The translations under genes were made by a program, and so were the position numbers. DNA of 38,047 bases from a virus: the IMG/VR virus record IMGVR_UViG_3300044611_002810, positions 1 through 38,047 of that record, one strand, 5' to 3'. Shown piece after piece: positions 24,523-34,085 of this stretch (position 1 is its first letter; each line of letters starts with the position of its first letter). The notes beneath the pieces were generated by a model that saw nothing but the letters and a program-made list of their open reading frames with translations, did no database searches and was not told the DNA's origin.

Positions 24523-24553
24523 GCTTGGCTTCCTGCTTGAACAGCGCGTTCAT
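24523..24553 (+). promoter_or_regulatory. Repeated 31-bp element, copy 3
   Basis: Identical half-sites and spacer length; 34 bases before the ATG at 24588 and 27 bases after the preceding stop. Here CCAAGCG upstream pairs with CGCTTGG at the element edge (loop CGAAA). Confidence 0.75.
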
Positions 24554-24587
24554 GACATCACCATCAACCACCCCGAAGGAGCAGCAA

Positions 24588-25226
24588 ATGACCACCCTCC
24601 AACTCACCGCCACCCAACACGCCGTCCTGGCCTATGCCATCCATCACACTGACGGCAAGATCGATTGGTTCCCGGAGAACATCAACGGCGGCGTGCGCAA
24701 GAAAGTCATCGCCGGATTGTTCAACCGCGCTCTGATCACCCCCAACGGCACCGACTGGTTCGTCGCCGCCGAGGCTTACGACGCCCTGGGCTGCACGCGC
24801 CCCGCGCCCATCACGCCGGAAGCGGGCGAGGCCGACGCCGACGCCAACAACGCCGAGGCAGCGCAATACGGTGCAAGCCATGTCCTGCTTGACGAGGTTG
24901 GTGGCGAAGACCCGACCGACGCTGAAATTGACGCCAGCCACGACGACGATCCCGAGATCGAGGCTGCAGTGGCCGCCGCCGAAGCGACTTGGCAGGACAC
25001 GACCAAGGCCGCCAAGCCCCGCACCCGCGAGAACAGCAAGCAGGCCACCGTGATCCAGATGCTCCAACGCCCCGAGGGGGCGACGATCGCCCAGATCTGC
25101 AGCGCTACGGGTTGGCTGCCCCACACCGTGCGCGGCACCTTCGCCGGCGCGTTTAAAAAGAAACTGGGCCTTGTCCTGACATCGGAGAAGGCCCAGGGAG
25201 GCGACCGGATTTACCACGTCGCCTGA
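24588..25226 (+). CDS. DUF3489-type protein
   Basis: 212 residues. N-terminal helical domain (TATQHAVLAYAIHHTDGKID), an acidic linker rich in Glu, Asp and Ala (about 80-140), and a C-terminal winged-helix-like module of the DUF3489 type: RENSKQATVIQMLQRPEGAT, GWLPHTVRGTF, then GDRIYHV. DUF3489 proteins recur in phages and mobile elements and probably bind DNA, but no function is established that I know of. CGAAGGAGC precedes the ATG. A GC-rich hairpin follows the stop. Confidence 0.8.
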   Translation: MTTLQLTATQHAVLAYAIHHTDGKIDWFPENINGGVRKKVIAGLFNRALITPNGTDWFVAAEAYDALGCTRPAPITPEAGEADADANNAEAAQYGASHVLLDEVGGEDPTDAEIDASHDDDPEIEAAVAAAEATWQDTTKAAKPRTRENSKQATVIQMLQRPEGATIAQICSATGWLPHTVRGTFAGAFKKKLGLVLTSEKAQGGDRIYHVA

Positions 25227-25233
25227 TTCAGTT

Positions 25234-25252
25234 GGGGCGGCTTGTCCGCCCC
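25234..25252. terminator. Bidirectional hairpin between convergent genes
   Basis: Perfect stem GGGGCGG/CCGCCCC with loop CTTGT, placed between the convergent stops of the DUF3489 gene (25226) and the HU gene (25258). No T-run follows on either strand, so it may rely on Rho or act only as a 3' end stabiliser. Confidence 0.55.
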
Positions 25253-25257
25253 ATCCA

Positions 25258-25590
25258 CTATTTCTTCTTGGCGGGTTTTGCCGCTTTGGTGGTCTTGGTG
25301 GCATTGGGCTTCTTCACCGGATTTACCAAGGCTTTCAATGTGGCGCCTGCTGTGAATTTCGGCACCGTTGCGGCAGCAATCTTGAGCTTCTCTCCCGTTT
25401 GGGGATTCTTGCCCTCACGCGCGGCACGCTGGCTGGTCTTGAAAGTGCCAAAGCCGATCAAGGTGACTGACTCCCCCTTGGCCATCGTTTCAGACACGGT
25501 ATCCAGAACAGCAGCCAGTGCGCGACCTGCATCAGCTTTGGTGAGTTCGGACTTGGCAGCGATGGCGGCAATCAGCTCGGTTTTATTCAT
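25258..25590 (-). CDS. HU/IHF-family DNA-binding protein with basic tail
   Basis: 110 residues starting MNKTELIAAIAAKSELTKAD. The HU core (about 1-88) has the beta-arm RAAREGKNPQTGEKLKI and the GFGTFKT turn. A Lys/Thr/Pro/Ala-rich tail (about 89-110, KKPNATKTTKAAKPAKKK) follows, as in histone-H1-like HU variants. It would bend or compact DNA and may serve phage replication, packaging or transcription. GGAGAAGC precedes the ATG. It is encoded opposite the surrounding small genes. Confidence 0.93.
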   Translation of the reverse strand: MNKTELIAAIAAKSELTKADAGRALAAVLDTVSETMAKGESVTLIGFGTFKTSQRAAREGKNPQTGEKLKIAAATVPKFTAGATLKALVNPVKKPNATKTTKAAKPAKKK

Positions 25591-26238: not shown

Positions 26239-26607
26239 ATGGCCACCACCAACAACACCCCCGCCACCCAGAACGACGCCTGGGGCTTTTTTGGCACCAT
26301 GAACGAACACGCCGACGCCGCCTGGCCGATCGCGATGCGCGCGGTTGCCGAGGCCACCGGCCAGTCGCTGGAAACGGTTCGAATCTTTATGGACAGCCGG
26401 TACGGACGCCATTTTGCGGACAGCGTCCTTGAACAGATGTTTCTCGGCGCAGATCTGGATGCCGCGATCGCAGCCGCCACGCAGAAGTGGATGTGCTGGA
26501 CTATTGGCCGCATCACCAGCAAAGAATACGGGATCCCGCGCGGGATGCCCTACCTGACCGGGTTTGTGATTCATACCGAGATCACTGACGAAGCGCTTGC
26601 CGCCTGA
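26239..26607 (+). CDS. Hypothetical protein
   Basis: 122 residues starting MATTNNTPATQNDAWGFFGT. It carries several Trp and Met, with no signal or membrane segment. The C-terminal half (AAATQKWMCWTIGRITSKEYG) may form a helical bundle. GCAGGAG precedes the ATG. The 3' end overlaps the end of the convergent methyltransferase gene by 37 bases. Family unknown. Confidence 0.65.
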   Translation: MATTNNTPATQNDAWGFFGTMNEHADAAWPIAMRAVAEATGQSLETVRIFMDSRYGRHFADSVLEQMFLGADLDAAIAAATQKWMCWTIGRITSKEYGIPRGMPYLTGFVIHTEITDEALAA

Positions 26608-27851
26608 TCGAACGCAGCATCGAAGGCCACCCCATCCGACTGGCGGGTGGCCCGGCCGCCAGCGAACTCCTGCCAGCGGCGCACGATCACATCCACGTAC
26701 TTCGGATCGAGCTCAATCAAGCGCGCCTGGCGGCCTGACTTCTCAGACGCAATCAGCGTGGTGCCCGATCCGCCGAAGGCATCCAGCACGACGTCCCCTG
26801 GGCGGCTTGAGTTGCGGATCGCCCGCTCCACCAGTTCTACCGGTTTCATGGTCGGGTGCAGATCATTCTTGTGCGGCTTCTTGATGTTCCAGACGTCACC
26901 CTGGTCACGGTCGCCGCACCAGTGGCGCTTCGAACCCTCCGGCCAGCCATACAGGATCGGTTCGAACTGGCGCTGGTAATCGGCGTGGCCTAGGGTGAAC
27001 GTGTTCTTGGCCCAGATGATGAAAGTGGACCACTTGCCACCGGCGGCGCGGAACGCGGATTGCAGCGTGTCGAGTTCAGAGGAGGACATGGCGATGTAGA
27101 CCGCGCCATGGCAGTGCGCCAATGTTGGCGTCAGCGCCGCCAGCAGGAAATCGTAGAAGCCATCACCTAGGTTGTCGTTCAGGATCGCCCGATCCTTGCC
27201 ACGCTGCCTGTCCTTGGCCGTGTTGGCGTAGTTGACGTTGTAGGGCGGGTCGGTAAAGGCCATGTCAGCCCGCTCGTCGACCAGCAGTGCCTCATAGCAA
27301 TTGGCATCGGTGGCGTCACCGCAGAGCACACGGTGGTCGCCACAGATCCAGATGTCGCCAGGCCGGGACACCGGAATCTCCGGCACATCGGGCGCGGCAT
27401 CCTCATCGGTTTGCCCATCTGTCGTGGTCTCCTCGCCGGCCAACAGATCGGCCAGTGCATCGGCGTCGAAACCGGTGAGCGACAGGTCGAAGTTGTCGTC
27501 CTGGAGGGCCGCCAGTTCCACCTGGAGCATGGCCTCATCCCAGCCGGCGTTCTCAGCAATGCGGTTGTCCGCGATGACCAGGGCGCGGCGCTGGGTGGGT
27601 GTGAGATGGTCAAGCACCACGACCGGCACGGTCGAGATGCCGAGCTTCTGGGCGGCGGCGAGGCGCCCATGCCCGGCCACGATCACGCCGTCGCCTCCGG
27701 CGAGGATGGGATTGGTGAAACCGAACTCGGCAATCGATGCGGCGATCTGCGCGACCTGGGCGTCGGTGTGGGTGCGGGCATTCCGCGCATACGGCAGCAG
27801 CTTGCCGGTCGGCCACTGCTCGATCTTGTTGGCGAGCCAGGAGATGCTCAT
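26571..27851 (-). CDS. ParB-N / DNA adenine methyltransferase fusion
   Basis: 426 residues. Residues 1-100 form a ParB/Srx-like nuclease-type domain (NARTHTDAQVAQIAASIAEF, then VIVAGHGRLAAAQKLG). From about 155 the methyltransferase follows: AdoMet-type D12 class beta with catalytic DPPY (MAFTDPPYNVNY) and the later motif VVLDAFGGSGTTL. DPPY suggests N6-adenine (or N4-cytosine) methylation. Orphan methyltransferases of this build in phages protect DNA from host restriction or tune regulation. ATGA overlap with the upstream paralogue. No cognate nuclease visible. Confidence 0.92.
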   Translation of the reverse strand: MSISWLANKIEQWPTGKLLPYARNARTHTDAQVAQIAASIAEFGFTNPILAGGDGVIVAGHGRLAAAQKLGISTVPVVVLDHLTPTQRRALVIADNRIAENAGWDEAMLQVELAALQDDNFDLSLTGFDADALADLLAGEETTTDGQTDEDAAPDVPEIPVSRPGDIWICGDHRVLCGDATDANCYEALLVDERADMAFTDPPYNVNYANTAKDRQRGKDRAILNDNLGDGFYDFLLAALTPTLAHCHGAVYIAMSSSELDTLQSAFRAAGGKWSTFIIWAKNTFTLGHADYQRQFEPILYGWPEGSKRHWCGDRDQGDVWNIKKPHKNDLHPTMKPVELVERAIRNSSRPGDVVLDAFGGSGTTLIASEKSGRQARLIELDPKYVDVIVRRWQEFAGGRATRQSDGVAFDAAFDQAASASSVISV

Positions 27852-29314
27852 TGCGCCAACTCCATTGTGCCAAGCCGTTCGGCGGCAACGGCGTCAAACG
27901 TCTGACCACTGGCAATCAGTGTCACCGGCACGCCGGGATAGTTCTGTTGGAAACGCTTGATGGCCACGTCCACATATTCCGGTGCGATTTCCACCGCCCT
28001 TACTTTTCGGTCGGCCCGTTGCCCAGCAAGAATCGAAGTACCGGAGCCACCGAAGGGCTCGAACACGATCCCGCCCACGTCGGTGAAGGACTTCATGATG
28101 AGGGCCGGCAGGTCTACCGGGAACACGGCCGGGTGATCGATGTCCTGACCGATCTTGCCCTTGTGCCGCATGACCCGGATCACCGAGTCGGGGATGCGGT
28201 AATCCTGGGTAGGCTGACCAGCAGCGGTCCAGCCGCCGACTTCGCCATCCTTGCCGCGCATGGCCGTTGAGGAGCCGTCGGCGCGCAGGTGCGTTTCCTG
28301 CCCCGCGAATTTGCAGGGCACGATCTTGTTGGGTTTGCGGCAGGGTTTGCCCGTATCGCGGTTGAAGTGGAATACGAACTCGAAGCTCGGGGCTAACCGG
28401 CCAGACCAATCTCCAGGCATCCCTGGCCCTTGGTCCCAGACGTACCATGCAAAGCGCCGCCAGCCTTGGCTGCGCATCCAGTCGAGCCAACCGTTCCAGT
28501 AGGGAACGACTTCGTTGTCGCGGTGGATCAACCCGAGGTTGACCAGAACCTGGCCATCAGGAGCCATGGGCAGTCGGGCGAAGACGCCGCACATCAGGTC
28601 ATCCCAATCAACGATGGCGTTGGTGTAGTCACGTTGATTGCCATAGGGCGGCGAGGTGAAGCACAGATCGGCGGACTCGCCGGCCATCAGCTCAGCAACC
28701 ACATTGGCGTCGGCGGCATCACCACAGATCATGCGGTGCGCACCCAGCTGCCAGACATCGCCCTGGCGGGAGACAGGATTGGCCGGTGCGTCGGGTACTT
28801 CGTCAGCCGCATCCGGCTCGTCACCTGTCGGCTCGCCGTCGGGTTCGTCTTCAACCCCGACAGCATCGGCCAGCAGCCGTTCGATCTCGCCATCATCGAA
28901 GCCGGTAAGTAGGAGGTCATAGCCGGCCTCCTGCAACTCGGCCAGTTCCAGCGCCAGCAGTTCCTCGTCCCAGCCTGCCTGCAACGCGAGCTGGTTGTCG
29001 CCGATCACGTAGGCCCGCTTCTGGGTCGGCGAGAGATGGCCCAACTCGATCACCGGCACTTCGGCCAGCCCCAACTTGCGGGCGGCTGCGAGACGTCCGT
29101 GGCCTGCGATGAGACCGTTGTTGCCATCCACCAGGAGCGGATTAGTCCAGCCGTATTCCACGATGCTGGCCGCGATCTTGGCTACCTGCGCCTCGGAGTG
29201 GGTCCGGGGATTACGGGCAAAGGGGATGAGCGTCTCAACCTTGCGGTATTCGACGGCGAGCGTGTTCAGATCAAGGATCTCCGAATGGGTGCGCTGTTGC
29301 GCTGGAAACGACAA
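27848..29314 (-). CDS. ParB-N / DNA methyltransferase fusion, TSPPY type
   Basis: About 488 residues from the start used here. ParB-like N-domain (NPRTHSEAQVAKIAASIVEY, then GLIAGHGRLAAARKLG), an acidic linker, and a methyltransferase domain with TSPPY instead of DPPY, then FEPFGGSGTS. SPPY is typical of N4-cytosine enzymes. It is the upstream partner of a related gene (4-base overlap). The start is unclear: homologous N-termini should begin near DLNTLAVEYRK, but no ATG is there. Candidates are TTG 29314, CTG 29269 with GGAG upstream, or GTG 29497, whose reading would run through a terminator hairpin. Confidence 0.85.
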   Translation of the reverse strand: MSFPAQQRTHSEILDLNTLAVEYRKVETLIPFARNPRTHSEAQVAKIAASIVEYGWTNPLLVDGNNGLIAGHGRLAAARKLGLAEVPVIELGHLSPTQKRAYVIGDNQLALQAGWDEELLALELAELQEAGYDLLLTGFDDGEIERLLADAVGVEDEPDGEPTGDEPDAADEVPDAPANPVSRQGDVWQLGAHRMICGDAADANVVAELMAGESADLCFTSPPYGNQRDYTNAIVDWDDLMCGVFARLPMAPDGQVLVNLGLIHRDNEVVPYWNGWLDWMRSQGWRRFAWYVWDQGPGMPGDWSGRLAPSFEFVFHFNRDTGKPCRKPNKIVPCKFAGQETHLRADGSSTAMRGKDGEVGGWTAAGQPTQDYRIPDSVIRVMRHKGKIGQDIDHPAVFPVDLPALIMKSFTDVGGIVFEPFGGSGTSILAGQRADRKVRAVEIAPEYVDVAIKRFQQNYPGVPVTLIASGQTFDAVAAERLGTMELAQ

Positions 29315-29345
29315 AGCCCGCCGACGATCAAACCATGGGCGGGCT
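29315..29345 (-). terminator. Terminator-like hairpin upstream of the methyltransferase
   Basis: Stem AGCCCGCC/GGCGGGCT, 15-base loop, followed on the minus strand by TTTGTCGTTT. It lies inside the longest possible reading frame of the methyltransferase, which argues that translation starts downstream of it, or that it regulates that gene. Confidence 0.6.
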
Positions 29346-29363
29346 CGGGAAATGGGTGCGGGG

Positions 29364-29408
29364 TGCAAACCTGCAAACCCCGCAAACCCTGCAAACCTCG
29401 GTTTGCAG
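29364..29408. repeat. 9-bp tandem repeats ending in an inverted repeat
   Basis: GCAAAC occurs at 29365, 29373, 29382 and 29391 (spacing 8, 9, 9). The last unit is part of a 20-base palindrome, CTGCAAACC-TC-GGTTTGCAG at 29389-29408. If translated on the minus strand it would spell repeated Phe-Ala-Gly. It looks like a protein-binding array rather than coding sequence. Confidence 0.7.
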
Positions 29409-29499
29409 TCGGACACTATCGAAAGGCCGCGCTCTCGCCTCCCGCATGGCAGAGGCGACAGGAAGGACCCGTTGAATATCTGCCGACCATCTGACACTC

Positions 29500-30983: not shown

Positions 30984-31179
30984 GACGCGGCCCTCCGTAG
31001 AGCCGCTCGCCAATGCGGCGAACGAACTCCTTCTCGACGAAATCCAGCCGCTCGTCCTGCTCCGACACCACGAGGATGTGCTGATCGCGCCAGCCGATTT
31101 GCTTGACCGCTTCGAGATCGGTGGTCTGCGGTTGCAGGCGACCGAGCGGGCAGCGATAGGTGTTTGCAGGAATCTTCAT
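30976..31179 (-). CDS. Small hypothetical protein
   Basis: 67 residues starting MKIPANTYRCPLGRLQPQTT. The end (EQDERLDFVEKEFVRRIGER) is helical. No family recognised. The ATG begins one base after the resolvase stop, with GGAGGTGTGAG upstream, so the pair is coupled. Confidence 0.7.
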   Translation of the reverse strand: MKIPANTYRCPLGRLQPQTTDLEAVKQIGWRDQHILVVSEQDERLDFVEKEFVRRIGERLYGGPRHD

Positions 31180-31180
31180 C

Positions 31181-31642
31181 TCACACCTCCTGCGTCTCGA
31201 TAGCCCAGTGCAGCAGGGCCAGCGCATCGGCTTCGTTGTCGTCGACTGGGGTGAAGCCGCGCTTAACAACGGCTGTGATCATTTCGGCCTTGCCGGCGTT
31301 GCCTTTGCCGGTCGCGTGCTTCTTGATCGTGCCCACCGGCACGCCCTGGTACGGAATCTGGTGGTGCTCGCACCAGGACGTCAGGGTGGCCATAAAGCCG
31401 CCGTAGGCGTGGGCGGCATCGACGCCGATGTGGCGACGCACTTCCTCGAAGTAGATGGCATCGATTTCGCCACTCTGCTTGATCTCCGTGAGCCACTTGC
31501 GGAATCGCAGGTAGCGCATGCCGCCGCCTTCGAAGCGTTGCGGCTTGAAGGTTTCGCTGTCGCTGATGATCTGGCCATCTATCAGGCGGATGGCCCAGCC
31601 GGTCTGTGTGCCCAGGTCCAGGGCGAGGATGCATGTCGTCAT
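31181..31642 (-). CDS. RuvC-like Holliday junction resolvase
   Basis: 153 residues. RNase H fold with LALDLGTQTGWA (Asp9), YFEEV (Glu66/67) and DDNEADALAL (Asp134/135, Asp139), the acidic quartet of RuvC-type resolvases; KKHATGKGNAGK is the basic loop. It would cut branched replication or recombination intermediates before packaging. Start at ATG 31642, with AAAGGAG upstream. A large inverted repeat lies directly in its leader. Confidence 0.9.
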   Translation of the reverse strand: MTTCILALDLGTQTGWAIRLIDGQIISDSETFKPQRFEGGGMRYLRFRKWLTEIKQSGEIDAIYFEEVRRHIGVDAAHAYGGFMATLTSWCEHHQIPYQGVPVGTIKKHATGKGNAGKAEMITAVVKRGFTPVDDNEADALALLHWAIETQEV

Positions 31643-31656
31643 GGTCAAAACTCCTT

Positions 31657-31745
31657 TTTGACCGAACCTGACTGTTCCACGGATTAACTCCCACACGCGC
31701 GTACGTGTAAGGCGTTAATCCTGGCGTCGGTACAGTTCGGTCAAA
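31657..31745. repeat. 89-bp interrupted palindrome in the resolvase leader
   Basis: Three nested inverted repeats share one centre near 31701: TTTGACCGAAC (31657-31667) with GTTCGGTCAAA (31735-31745); GGATTAAC (31681-31688) with GTTAATCC (31714-31721); ACACG (31693-31697) with CGTGT (31704-31708). The sequences between them do not pair well. It fills most of the gap between the primase-helicase and resolvase genes and ends a few bases from the ribosome binding site. Confidence 0.85.
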
Positions 31746-31793
31746 TCATTTGGATTCAGTGAGTTGCGTTGGCTTGAAAAGTATCCGGAGGGG

Positions 31794-34085
31794 TCAGTCG
31801 TCGCGGTAGGGCAAACGCTCACCGTAGTCAGTTGGCTTGAGCGACAGGCCGAGGAGCGCCTTCGCGCCTGTCGACGTTCGCCCTCGCTCGAAGCCCCGCC
31901 GCACCAACTGCTGCACCAACCAGCGGCTGGTGCCGATGTACTCGCCACGCTTGTCCGCCCGGCTCTTCCAGCGCTCGAAGATGTCCACGACGGAGACCCT
32001 GACCTGGGAATGCTGCTGGCACTCCTCATCGAGAAATTCGCCGATGGTGTCTTCCTCGTCGAAGTACTCATCAGTGGCGTCCACCACGCACTTGGGCGGC
32101 TTCAAACCATCACGTTGCCAGGCCAGGCACCCTTGCAATGCCCAGGCAAGAATCCCGTCACGCTCCTGCAGCAGCTTGGCTGACAGCGATTTGTCGCGCT
32201 TCTCCGGCGGCACGGTCAGAGTGAACGGGATGAGATGCAGACGCCGACGCATCGCCTCATCGATATTGCGCAACGCAGGTTTGTGATTGCCGGCGATGAC
32301 CAACTTGAACTGCGGCAGGTAAGTGAAAAAGTCCTGGCGCATGAAACGCGCCGAGACCCGGTCGCCGCCGGTGATCTCCTTGATCTTCGACTCGTTCCAG
32401 CGCCGCCCCTGCTCGGTTTCGGTCGCACCGACAAAACGGGCACCCCGAAGTCCGGCCAGGTCGGTTGGATGACGGTCGCCGCGTGATTCCATGAAGGTGT
32501 CCATGGGTGCGTTAGCCGCGTAGTCGCCGAGCAAAGTGAACAGCGTGTTCACGAACACCGACTTGCCGTTGGCCCCGGTGCCATACAGGAAAAACAGCGC
32601 GTGCTCCTGGGTGGACCCGGTCAGGCAATAACCCGCGAAGCGCTGCAGGTATTCGGCAAATGCCTTGTCGCCCTGGGTGACCTGATCGATGAAGTCGAGC
32701 CAGTGTGGGCAAGTGCCGCGCGGCGTGGCCGACGCGATCCTGGTCATCCGGTCGCCACGGTCATGCGGACGCATGCGCCCGGTGCGCAGATCCACCACGC
32801 CGCCGGGTGTGTTGAGCAGCCAGAGGTCGGCATCCCACTCGTCGGTGGTGGCGGCGTGTTTGCGGTCCGATTTGGCCAGGCGTTCCACGCCGCCGACGGT
32901 GCTGGCTCCGGCGAGCTTGGCCGCGACCTTGGGATTGTCCGCTTGGACCGAGGCATGTCGACACACCTGACGGATCAGATGGGTGGCCGCTAGCGTTTCC
33001 TCGGCTCGCCAGCGTTGACCATCCCACATCAACCACTTGCCCCAGGCGGCGATGTAGCGCCAGTCGCGTTGGTAGCGGCGGGTGAAGTTGAGCGCCAGGG
33101 CGTCCTCGGTACCCCACACAGTCTGCTCGTCGGCTGGATGGGGATCTGAACCCGTGGGTTCCAGTTCTTCCATGTCATGGACGGTCAGGCTGGGTCCGGT
33201 GGACAGGTACGTAGATACCTCGAAGCCTTCAGCGAGTGCGTCTGCCGCATCCCAGCCTTCGGGTTTGTCGTCTGGCGGAAACAGGATGTGACAGGTCGTC
33301 GCACCCGCTGCCAGGATGGCTTGTGAGGCCGCTTCGGCGTAACCCCAGCCCGGCTTGTCGCGATCGGGCCAGATCAGCACCGCTTTGCCGGCCAGCGGCG
33401 ACCAGTCGGTTTTCTCGACAGGGGCGTTCGCGCCGTGCATCGCCGTGGTCGCGCAAATCCCCGCATCGATCAGGGCCTGCGCACACTTCTCGCCTTCGAC
33501 TAGCACCACGGCATCGGCTTCCAGCATCGCCGGCTGGTTGTAGAGGGGCCGTGGCTCGGGCGGTGTCATCTTCTTTCGCTTGGCGTCCCAGGGGCGAAAC
33601 TCCTTCTTGCCTCCGGGCGGGTCGTATCGATAGACCACCGCGATCAGCTTGCCGTCGACATCAAAGTAATCCCACTTGGCCGTGGCCTTGCCTAGTTCGT
33701 CGATTGGGGCCTGCCGCTTGCCTTTCCGGGGCGTTGCCGGTGGCGCGCGCCCAAGCAGATCCGTGCTGTGCGCCAGCACCCTTGGGAAATCGTGATGCGT
33801 ATCGGCGCCGAAGTGACCGCCGATCAGCATAAATACGTCACCGCCGGAATCGTCGGCGCGATCAGTCCAGAGTCCGGCCTTCTCGCCATTGAGGACAATT
33901 TCGAGACTGTCACCAGGGCTGCCCAGGATGTCGCCGATGTAATACTTGCCATGACGCTTCTTGCCGGCAGGGAACAGCGTGAACAGCACGGACTCCAGAT
34001 TCGCGATGAGTGCCGCTCGAATCTCCTCACGTTCTGCATCCAGGTTGCGCTCGACCGGCGCGGGGATATCGTTGAAATCGATCAT
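31794..34085 (-). CDS. Primase-helicase, Toprim + D5/SF3 (P4-alpha-like)
   Basis: 763 residues. Toprim at about 192-290 with VEGEK (Glu198) and WPDRD (Asp241-Asp243); linker; D5_N domain; then SF3 helicase with Walker A GTGANGKS (502-509), Walker B-like GATETEQ and the B'/C motif KLVIAGNHKP. This is the self-contained P4/D5 replication protein that primes and unwinds. No N-terminal zinc finger is apparent. It starts with ATGA overlap after the HTH gene and is followed by the 89-bp palindrome. It implies autonomous replication from an origin nearby. Confidence 0.93.
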   Translation of the reverse strand: MIDFNDIPAPVERNLDAEREEIRAALIANLESVLFTLFPAGKKRHGKYYIGDILGSPGDSLEIVLNGEKAGLWTDRADDSGGDVFMLIGGHFGADTHHDFPRVLAHSTDLLGRAPPATPRKGKRQAPIDELGKATAKWDYFDVDGKLIAVVYRYDPPGGKKEFRPWDAKRKKMTPPEPRPLYNQPAMLEADAVVLVEGEKCAQALIDAGICATTAMHGANAPVEKTDWSPLAGKAVLIWPDRDKPGWGYAEAASQAILAAGATTCHILFPPDDKPEGWDAADALAEGFEVSTYLSTGPSLTVHDMEELEPTGSDPHPADEQTVWGTEDALALNFTRRYQRDWRYIAAWGKWLMWDGQRWRAEETLAATHLIRQVCRHASVQADNPKVAAKLAGASTVGGVERLAKSDRKHAATTDEWDADLWLLNTPGGVVDLRTGRMRPHDRGDRMTRIASATPRGTCPHWLDFIDQVTQGDKAFAEYLQRFAGYCLTGSTQEHALFFLYGTGANGKSVFVNTLFTLLGDYAANAPMDTFMESRGDRHPTDLAGLRGARFVGATETEQGRRWNESKIKEITGGDRVSARFMRQDFFTYLPQFKLVIAGNHKPALRNIDEAMRRRLHLIPFTLTVPPEKRDKSLSAKLLQERDGILAWALQGCLAWQRDGLKPPKCVVDATDEYFDEEDTIGEFLDEECQQHSQVRVSVVDIFERWKSRADKRGEYIGTSRWLVQQLVRRGFERGRTSTGAKALLGLSLKPTDYGERLPYRDD

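Follow-up and report, generated by a model that had tools for sequence, protein, structure and literature searches.

A palindromic DNA element is conserved between the primase-helicase and the RuvC-like Holliday junction resolvase genes of well over 100 phages, judging by comparison of their sequences. The C-terminal winged-helix domain of the adjacent primase-helicase probably binds the element as double-stranded DNA, and the element is most likely the replication origin of these phages. Elements of this kind are already known, given that a stem-loop origin has been established by experiment in plasmid pRN1 and proposed for phage BIP-1. The layout described here, and the coupling between the arms of the palindrome and the putative initiator, appear to be new; a search of the literature for a palindrome between primase and RuvC genes found no description of one.

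The palindrome and its gene neighbourhood

The sequence analysed is an IMG/VR virus record, and the whole 38-kb stretch is referred to here as the window. The nearest prophage relative of this phage lies in a Hydrogenophilales MAG, in which the primase is 90% identical. The replication and packaging genes read leftward (the − strand at the palindrome) in the order antirepressor, Sak4-like annealing protein, Cas4-type exonuclease, P4-family primase-helicase, RuvC-like resolvase, DUF6362 regulator-like protein, two ParB/methyltransferase genes, terminase and head genes. Each of the two neighbouring ParB/methyltransferase genes (26571-29497) encodes a ParB-like domain fused to a DNA methyltransferase. 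At the site itself, the primase-helicase gene (31794-34085, − strand), whose product is the proposed initiator, is followed by the palindrome (31657-31745, − strand; approximately 89 bp) and then by the RuvC-like resolvase gene (31181-31642, − strand; phrog_159, E 7e-34), which has the ribosome-binding site AGGAG at about 31651-31655. The palindrome thus lies inside an intergenic gap of 151 nt.

The original prediction placed nested inverted repeats near 31701 between these two genes, and a mechanical search recovered them as arms at 31657-31691 and 31711-31745, forming a hairpin that is kept in relatives. It also gave three repeats a common centre, which holds for the outer stem TTTGACCGAAC (31657-31667 / 31735-31745) and the middle stem GGATTAAC / GTTAATCC (31681-31688 / 31714-31721), both centred on 31701, but not for the inner stem ACACG/CGTGT (31693-31697 / 31704-31708), which is half a base off. 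The arms carry iterons. Read directly on the + strand, the RuvC-proximal arm (31657-31675, TTTGACCGAACCTGACTG) has TGAC starting at 31659 and 31669, a spacing of exactly 10 bp, and the same TGAC-N5/6-TGAC layout is found in relatives. The primase-proximal arm (31726-31745, − strand) has the iteron TTTGACCGAAC and a degenerate second copy, TGTACCGAC. Between the arms lies an 18-bp alternating purine-pyrimidine run, CACACGCGCGTACGTGTA (31692-31709), which is the longest such run in the whole window and forms a core prone to Z-DNA or cruciform formation.

Judged from the window sequence alone, the palindrome is only moderately unusual, and it is the relatives that decide. Its fold z is −3.6 on the + strand and −3.0 on the − strand, it ranks second among the GC-adjusted hairpin loci in the 38 kb, and an ungapped measure scores two further inverted repeats in the window equally high. 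The top GC-adjusted fold (25130-25290, z −5.4) consists of several short hairpins round the stop of a + strand ORF (24525-25226), which may be a terminator separating convergent genes.

Conservation and pairing in relatives

Two scans of viral contigs yielded about 90 distinct loci in which a primase gene, a gap and RuvC follow one another, and a further 157 loci came from a scan with the C-terminal domain and from bacterial genomes. The prophage loci retrieved from bacterial genomes, mostly proteobacterial, number 80. Where the primase is of this type, the gap up to RuvC is mostly 117-157 nt long, and lengths of 114-158 nt cover by far the most relatives; the gap contains the nested hairpin in nearly all of them. 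Over 88 distinct gaps, fold z has a median of −6.1, and 5 of 2,640 shuffles fold equally well. RuvC is present at 148 of the 157 further loci, with unchanged spacing in nearly all. Actinophage primases that are 31-33% identical lack a palindrome-bearing gap after the primase gene.

Among 39 divergent palindromes, both-sided changes occur in 18 of the 20 consensus pairs, and 91.6% of cells are paired, compared with 65.8% after shuffling and 25-38% after sliding; double-change cells number 191 observed versus 66. The middle stem (helix 2) has 85.5% of its cells paired and double changes at 3 of 3 pairs, and in the outer stem two-sided changes are common and one-sided changes rare. The compensatory pairing that had been suggested as a check is therefore present, and of the two outcomes that would have spoken against the original prediction, relatives without the dyad and arms varying without compensation, neither was found. 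The alternating purine-pyrimidine core is likewise retained, dyad-centred and with a median length of 21 nt compared with 7.5 nt in shuffles. In relatives an arm contains two or occasionally three iterons with a TGAC core, spaced 9-10 bp apart, and the opposite arm has them inverted (for example TGACGGATC, TGACGCAGC, TGACGCATC, TGACCGAAG and TGAAGGATT). No second iteron cluster was found in the window or the long contigs examined for one.

A few loci depart from this arrangement. L137 and L150 have gaps of 255 and 268 nt with two tandem palindromes, an apparent duplication of the element. In L008 (3850-4010) the primase is cut after about residue 380 and fused to the right palindrome arm at a short shared sequence, which is either a deletion or an assembly error. 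RuvC is absent from L096 (3100-6600) and L231; beyond the palindrome, the opposite strand carries three tyrosine-recombinase-like ORFs, apparently those of a transposon that inserted at the right arm. In L093 the downstream region is replaced and the right arm lost, and in L330 the primase C-terminus is lost. These four loci were considered as clean cases of a palindrome without RuvC and rejected as non-discriminating, given the transposon, the lost arm and the lost C-terminus.

A palindrome that acts as RNA is expected to tolerate G-U far above A-C, whereas one that acts as DNA should show no preference, given that a G-T mismatch on one strand is an A-C mismatch on the opposite strand. Counted with an aligner that gives no reward for wobble, mismatches in the arms amount to 147 GU versus 195 AC, isolated mismatches to 44 versus 39, and mismatches in the second (prophage) set to 124 versus 155. 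Because G-T mismatches are no commoner than A-C, the pairing appears to be kept as DNA. This bears on the proposal, already part of the original prediction, that pairing in the RNA controls translation, that is, that a cis-acting RNA hairpin regulates RuvC. The RNA fold is strong, TTTTGACC near the start codon could pair with the arm GGTCAAA in the window, where the alternative hairpin GGTCAAAA/TTTTGACC is present, and TGAC occurs near the ribosome-binding site in many relatives. However, wobble pairs are not preferred in either set, 5-mers of the ribosome-binding-site region match their own arms (81) about as often as those of other phages (76; p = 0.31), and an Rfam search of the palindrome returned nothing at the gathering threshold, so that we regard RNA regulation as very improbable. 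A third iteron at the RuvC ribosome-binding site was also considered, and was rejected because the match is not arm-specific by the same comparison. An intrinsic terminator of the primase gene, which would explain a strong hairpin immediately 3' of that gene, has a negligible chance of being the answer: there is no terminator-like site, the T-run is missing after the hairpin in the reading direction, the next gene lies on the same strand with its own ribosome-binding site, and the coupling of the iterons would be left unexplained.

The protein that the arms follow

The primase-helicase scores 337.8 bits against TIGR01613 (cut-off 108.7), which places it in the P4 family, and its helicase part is related to P4 alpha by BLASTP (E 2e-9). 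Pfam finds only D5_N and DUF5906, and no archaeo-eukaryotic prim-pol domain. The C-terminus (approximately residues 640-763; 31797-32168, − strand) is predicted by AF2 to be a winged helix (pLDDT 81), and we propose it as the origin-binding domain on the basis of this model, the structural matches and the coupling to the arms. Foldseek matches it best to the RFX DNA-binding domain on DNA (E 1.5e-3, probability 1.00) and next to the tail of AsfvPrimPol, which has been grouped with the P4 origin-binding domain and RFX1 (PMC10516667). The P4 domain itself is absent among the 50 Foldseek matches listed, and the likeness to P4 at this level rests on that published grouping.

Arm k-mer distance was compared with protein distance by Mantel tests and in sliding windows over 78 loci. 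The arms correlate with primase residues 640-763 (Mantel r = 0.75) far more closely than with the primase N-terminus (0.27), the ATPase (0.16), RuvC (0.18) or RuvC residues 1-50 (0.18). The independent prophage set, drawn from genome contigs, gives r values of 0.69, 0.46, 0.32 and 0.17, the first for the primase C-terminus and the last for RuvC. In sliding windows a strong signal is confined to primase residues 640-763 (rho 0.66-0.79), with 0.1-0.4 in the N-terminal and ATPase parts and 0.18 in RuvC, and the per-column information peaks at residues 651-763. The partial correlation of the arms with the C-terminus is 0.77 when RuvC is controlled for, and that with RuvC is −0.07 when the C-terminus is.

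Individual pairs of phages present the same picture. L105 and L125 are 99% identical in RuvC and 94% in the primase N-terminus, yet only 61% in the C-terminus, and their arms are unrelated; L028/L074 and L089/L125 are module swaps of the same type. Some phage pairs have RuvC proteins that are 98-99% identical yet unrelated arms, and the primase C-terminus then differs too. Evidently, to judge from these alignments, arms and winged-helix domain have moved together between phages whose flanking genes are nearly identical. Because the C-terminal codons adjoin the arms, block exchange by recombination contributes to the correlation. Physical linkage alone cannot, on this comparison, explain why the coupling is one-sided, given that RuvC residues 1-50 lie about as near to the palindrome as the primase C-terminus does and show almost no correlation.

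A second class of 34 relatives has a RuvC that is approximately 75-81% identical, whereas the match to the upstream primase is limited to the N-terminal 300 residues, with an AAA_25 helicase part instead in the two primases scanned. Here the RuvC core is preceded by an in-frame N-terminal extension of 310-480 nt (100-160 codons), packed with a different inverted iteron, GTTGGCA/TGCCAAC, and the reading frame is open in 34 of 34 loci. Examples are L013 (3689-4000) and the regions upstream of the RuvC core in L017, L018, L027, L064 and about 30 others. In sequence the extension looks like an origin array within a coding region, and here again the iteron is a different one while RuvC stays, in keeping with an origin that follows its replication protein. 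In L068 another palindrome takes the place of CTCCTACTACGTAGGAG, the protein sequence being changed and the complementarity kept. In L003 (300-700; MW202473, a phage from Manatee Spring), the region upstream of RuvC has GGGTAGTACA repeats, both direct and inverted, which are yet another iteron sequence.

These observations also bear on the other roles that the palindrome could have. In poxviruses a D5 helicase is accompanied by a RuvC-fold resolvase that acts on palindromic junctions, and the original prediction saw in the palindrome a cruciform that could be a substrate for the resolvase that it precedes. Extrusion and binding or cutting by the RuvC-like enzyme, for regulation of its own gene or for genome resolution, would fit the nearly universal adjacency of RuvC (148 of 157 loci) and the second class, in which a RuvC about 80% identical has other palindromes at the same place. 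However, the arms follow the primase C-terminus and are nearly independent of RuvC, they change completely between phages with RuvC 98-99% identical, the conserved TGAC iterons would be superfluous for a structure-specific enzyme, and RuvC relatives in Wolbachia phage WO and MW202478 have no comparable palindrome. We therefore consider a resolvase substrate decidedly improbable. A combined role, in which the primase-helicase reads the arms of an extruded, Z-prone cruciform and the RuvC-like enzyme acts on the same four-way junction, coupling firing and processing, is improbable as well, if a little less so. The primase-helicase could also bind the site mainly as an operator of the downstream operon. 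This would account equally well for the coupling between arms and C-terminus, it suits a site upstream of RuvC and later genes, and operator and origin roles could coexist. No sigma-70-like promoter was found in 31000-32400, though, comparable sites in P4 and pRN1 are origins (by analogy; PMC4234260), and the alternating core and large dyad are more than a simple operator needs, which leaves a main role as operator unlikely.

Proposed origin and comparison with known origins

The option of an origin, one of several in the original prediction, is supported by the coupling of the arms to the primase C-terminus, by the iterons and by the conserved dyad. We infer physical binding, double-ring loading, core melting and origin activity. 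The winged helices of the primase-helicase would bind the TGAC iterons in both arms, the initiators of the two arms would assemble a pair of helicase rings face to face across the central core, and the alternating purine-pyrimidine core would then open or extrude, allowing primer synthesis. Several results do not favour an origin: the core is GC-rich, contrary to the usual AT-rich melting region; GC skew, which had been suggested as a check, does not turn consistently at the palindrome in the window and 12 long phage contigs; there is one iteron cluster where P4 has two loci; and the more distant actinophage primases lack the element. At origins of SV40-type SF3 helicases, short sites repeat in tandem within both halves of an inverted array, and two helicase rings assemble head to head. 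The inverted array of short sites and the two-ring assembly proposed here are similar, but the proteins and iterons differ, and AT-rich and early-palindrome elements were not identified here.

The crenarchaeal plasmid pRN1 needs, for its replication, a 100-bp stem-loop that lies downstream of its primase-helicase gene; this stem-loop can be moved, and its structure is conserved while its sequence varies (PMC4234260). Berkner et al. 2014 noted a similar stem-loop in phage BIP-1 (Bordetella phages BIP-1/BPP-1; PMC4234260). Both systems have an imperfect stem-loop of approximately 100 bp just 3' of a gene for a primase-helicase with a C-terminal winged helix, its structure is kept and its sequence is not, and the stem-loop has been suggested to bind the replication protein. 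In contrast, the pRN1 element is described without iterons, of which the arms consist here, and the pRN1 protein has an archaeo-eukaryotic primase whereas the window protein has no Pfam prim-pol domain. The alternating purine-pyrimidine core and arms that follow the winged helix are features of the element described here. Origin function in pRN1 was tested experimentally, and the window palindrome is an origin predicted from sequence. In Bordetella phage BPP-1 (L202, 2300-2720) the C-terminus of bbp29 looks related and GGCGTCAGC/GCTGACGCC arms follow its stop; the iterons are oriented opposite to those of the window, and a resolvase gene is not annotated beside bbp29.

P4 shares with the window phage a P4-family primase-helicase (TIGR01613), and its type-1 iteron, GGTGAACAG, resembles the TGAC-core iterons of 9-10 bp, which occur here as both direct and inverted copies. 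The crr of P4 sits a short way downstream of the alpha gene, in the position that the palindrome has relative to the primase-helicase gene. In P4, however, the iterons are not arranged as a single nested palindrome, and they occupy two separate loci (ori and crr) where we found one. By analogy, the element would work like the P4 and pRN1 origins while being a full member of neither description, because there is no second iteron locus as in P4, and because it has iterons and no Pfam prim-pol domain, unlike pRN1.

If the reading as an origin is true, a large set of uncultivated phages and prophages has a predicted origin at hand. The swaps of arms and C-terminus as a unit would make the rule of initiator-origin recognition directly testable with natural matched and mismatched pairs. 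On the comparative argument, stem-loop origins of the pRN1 type may belong to the same family as the P4-type iteron origins.
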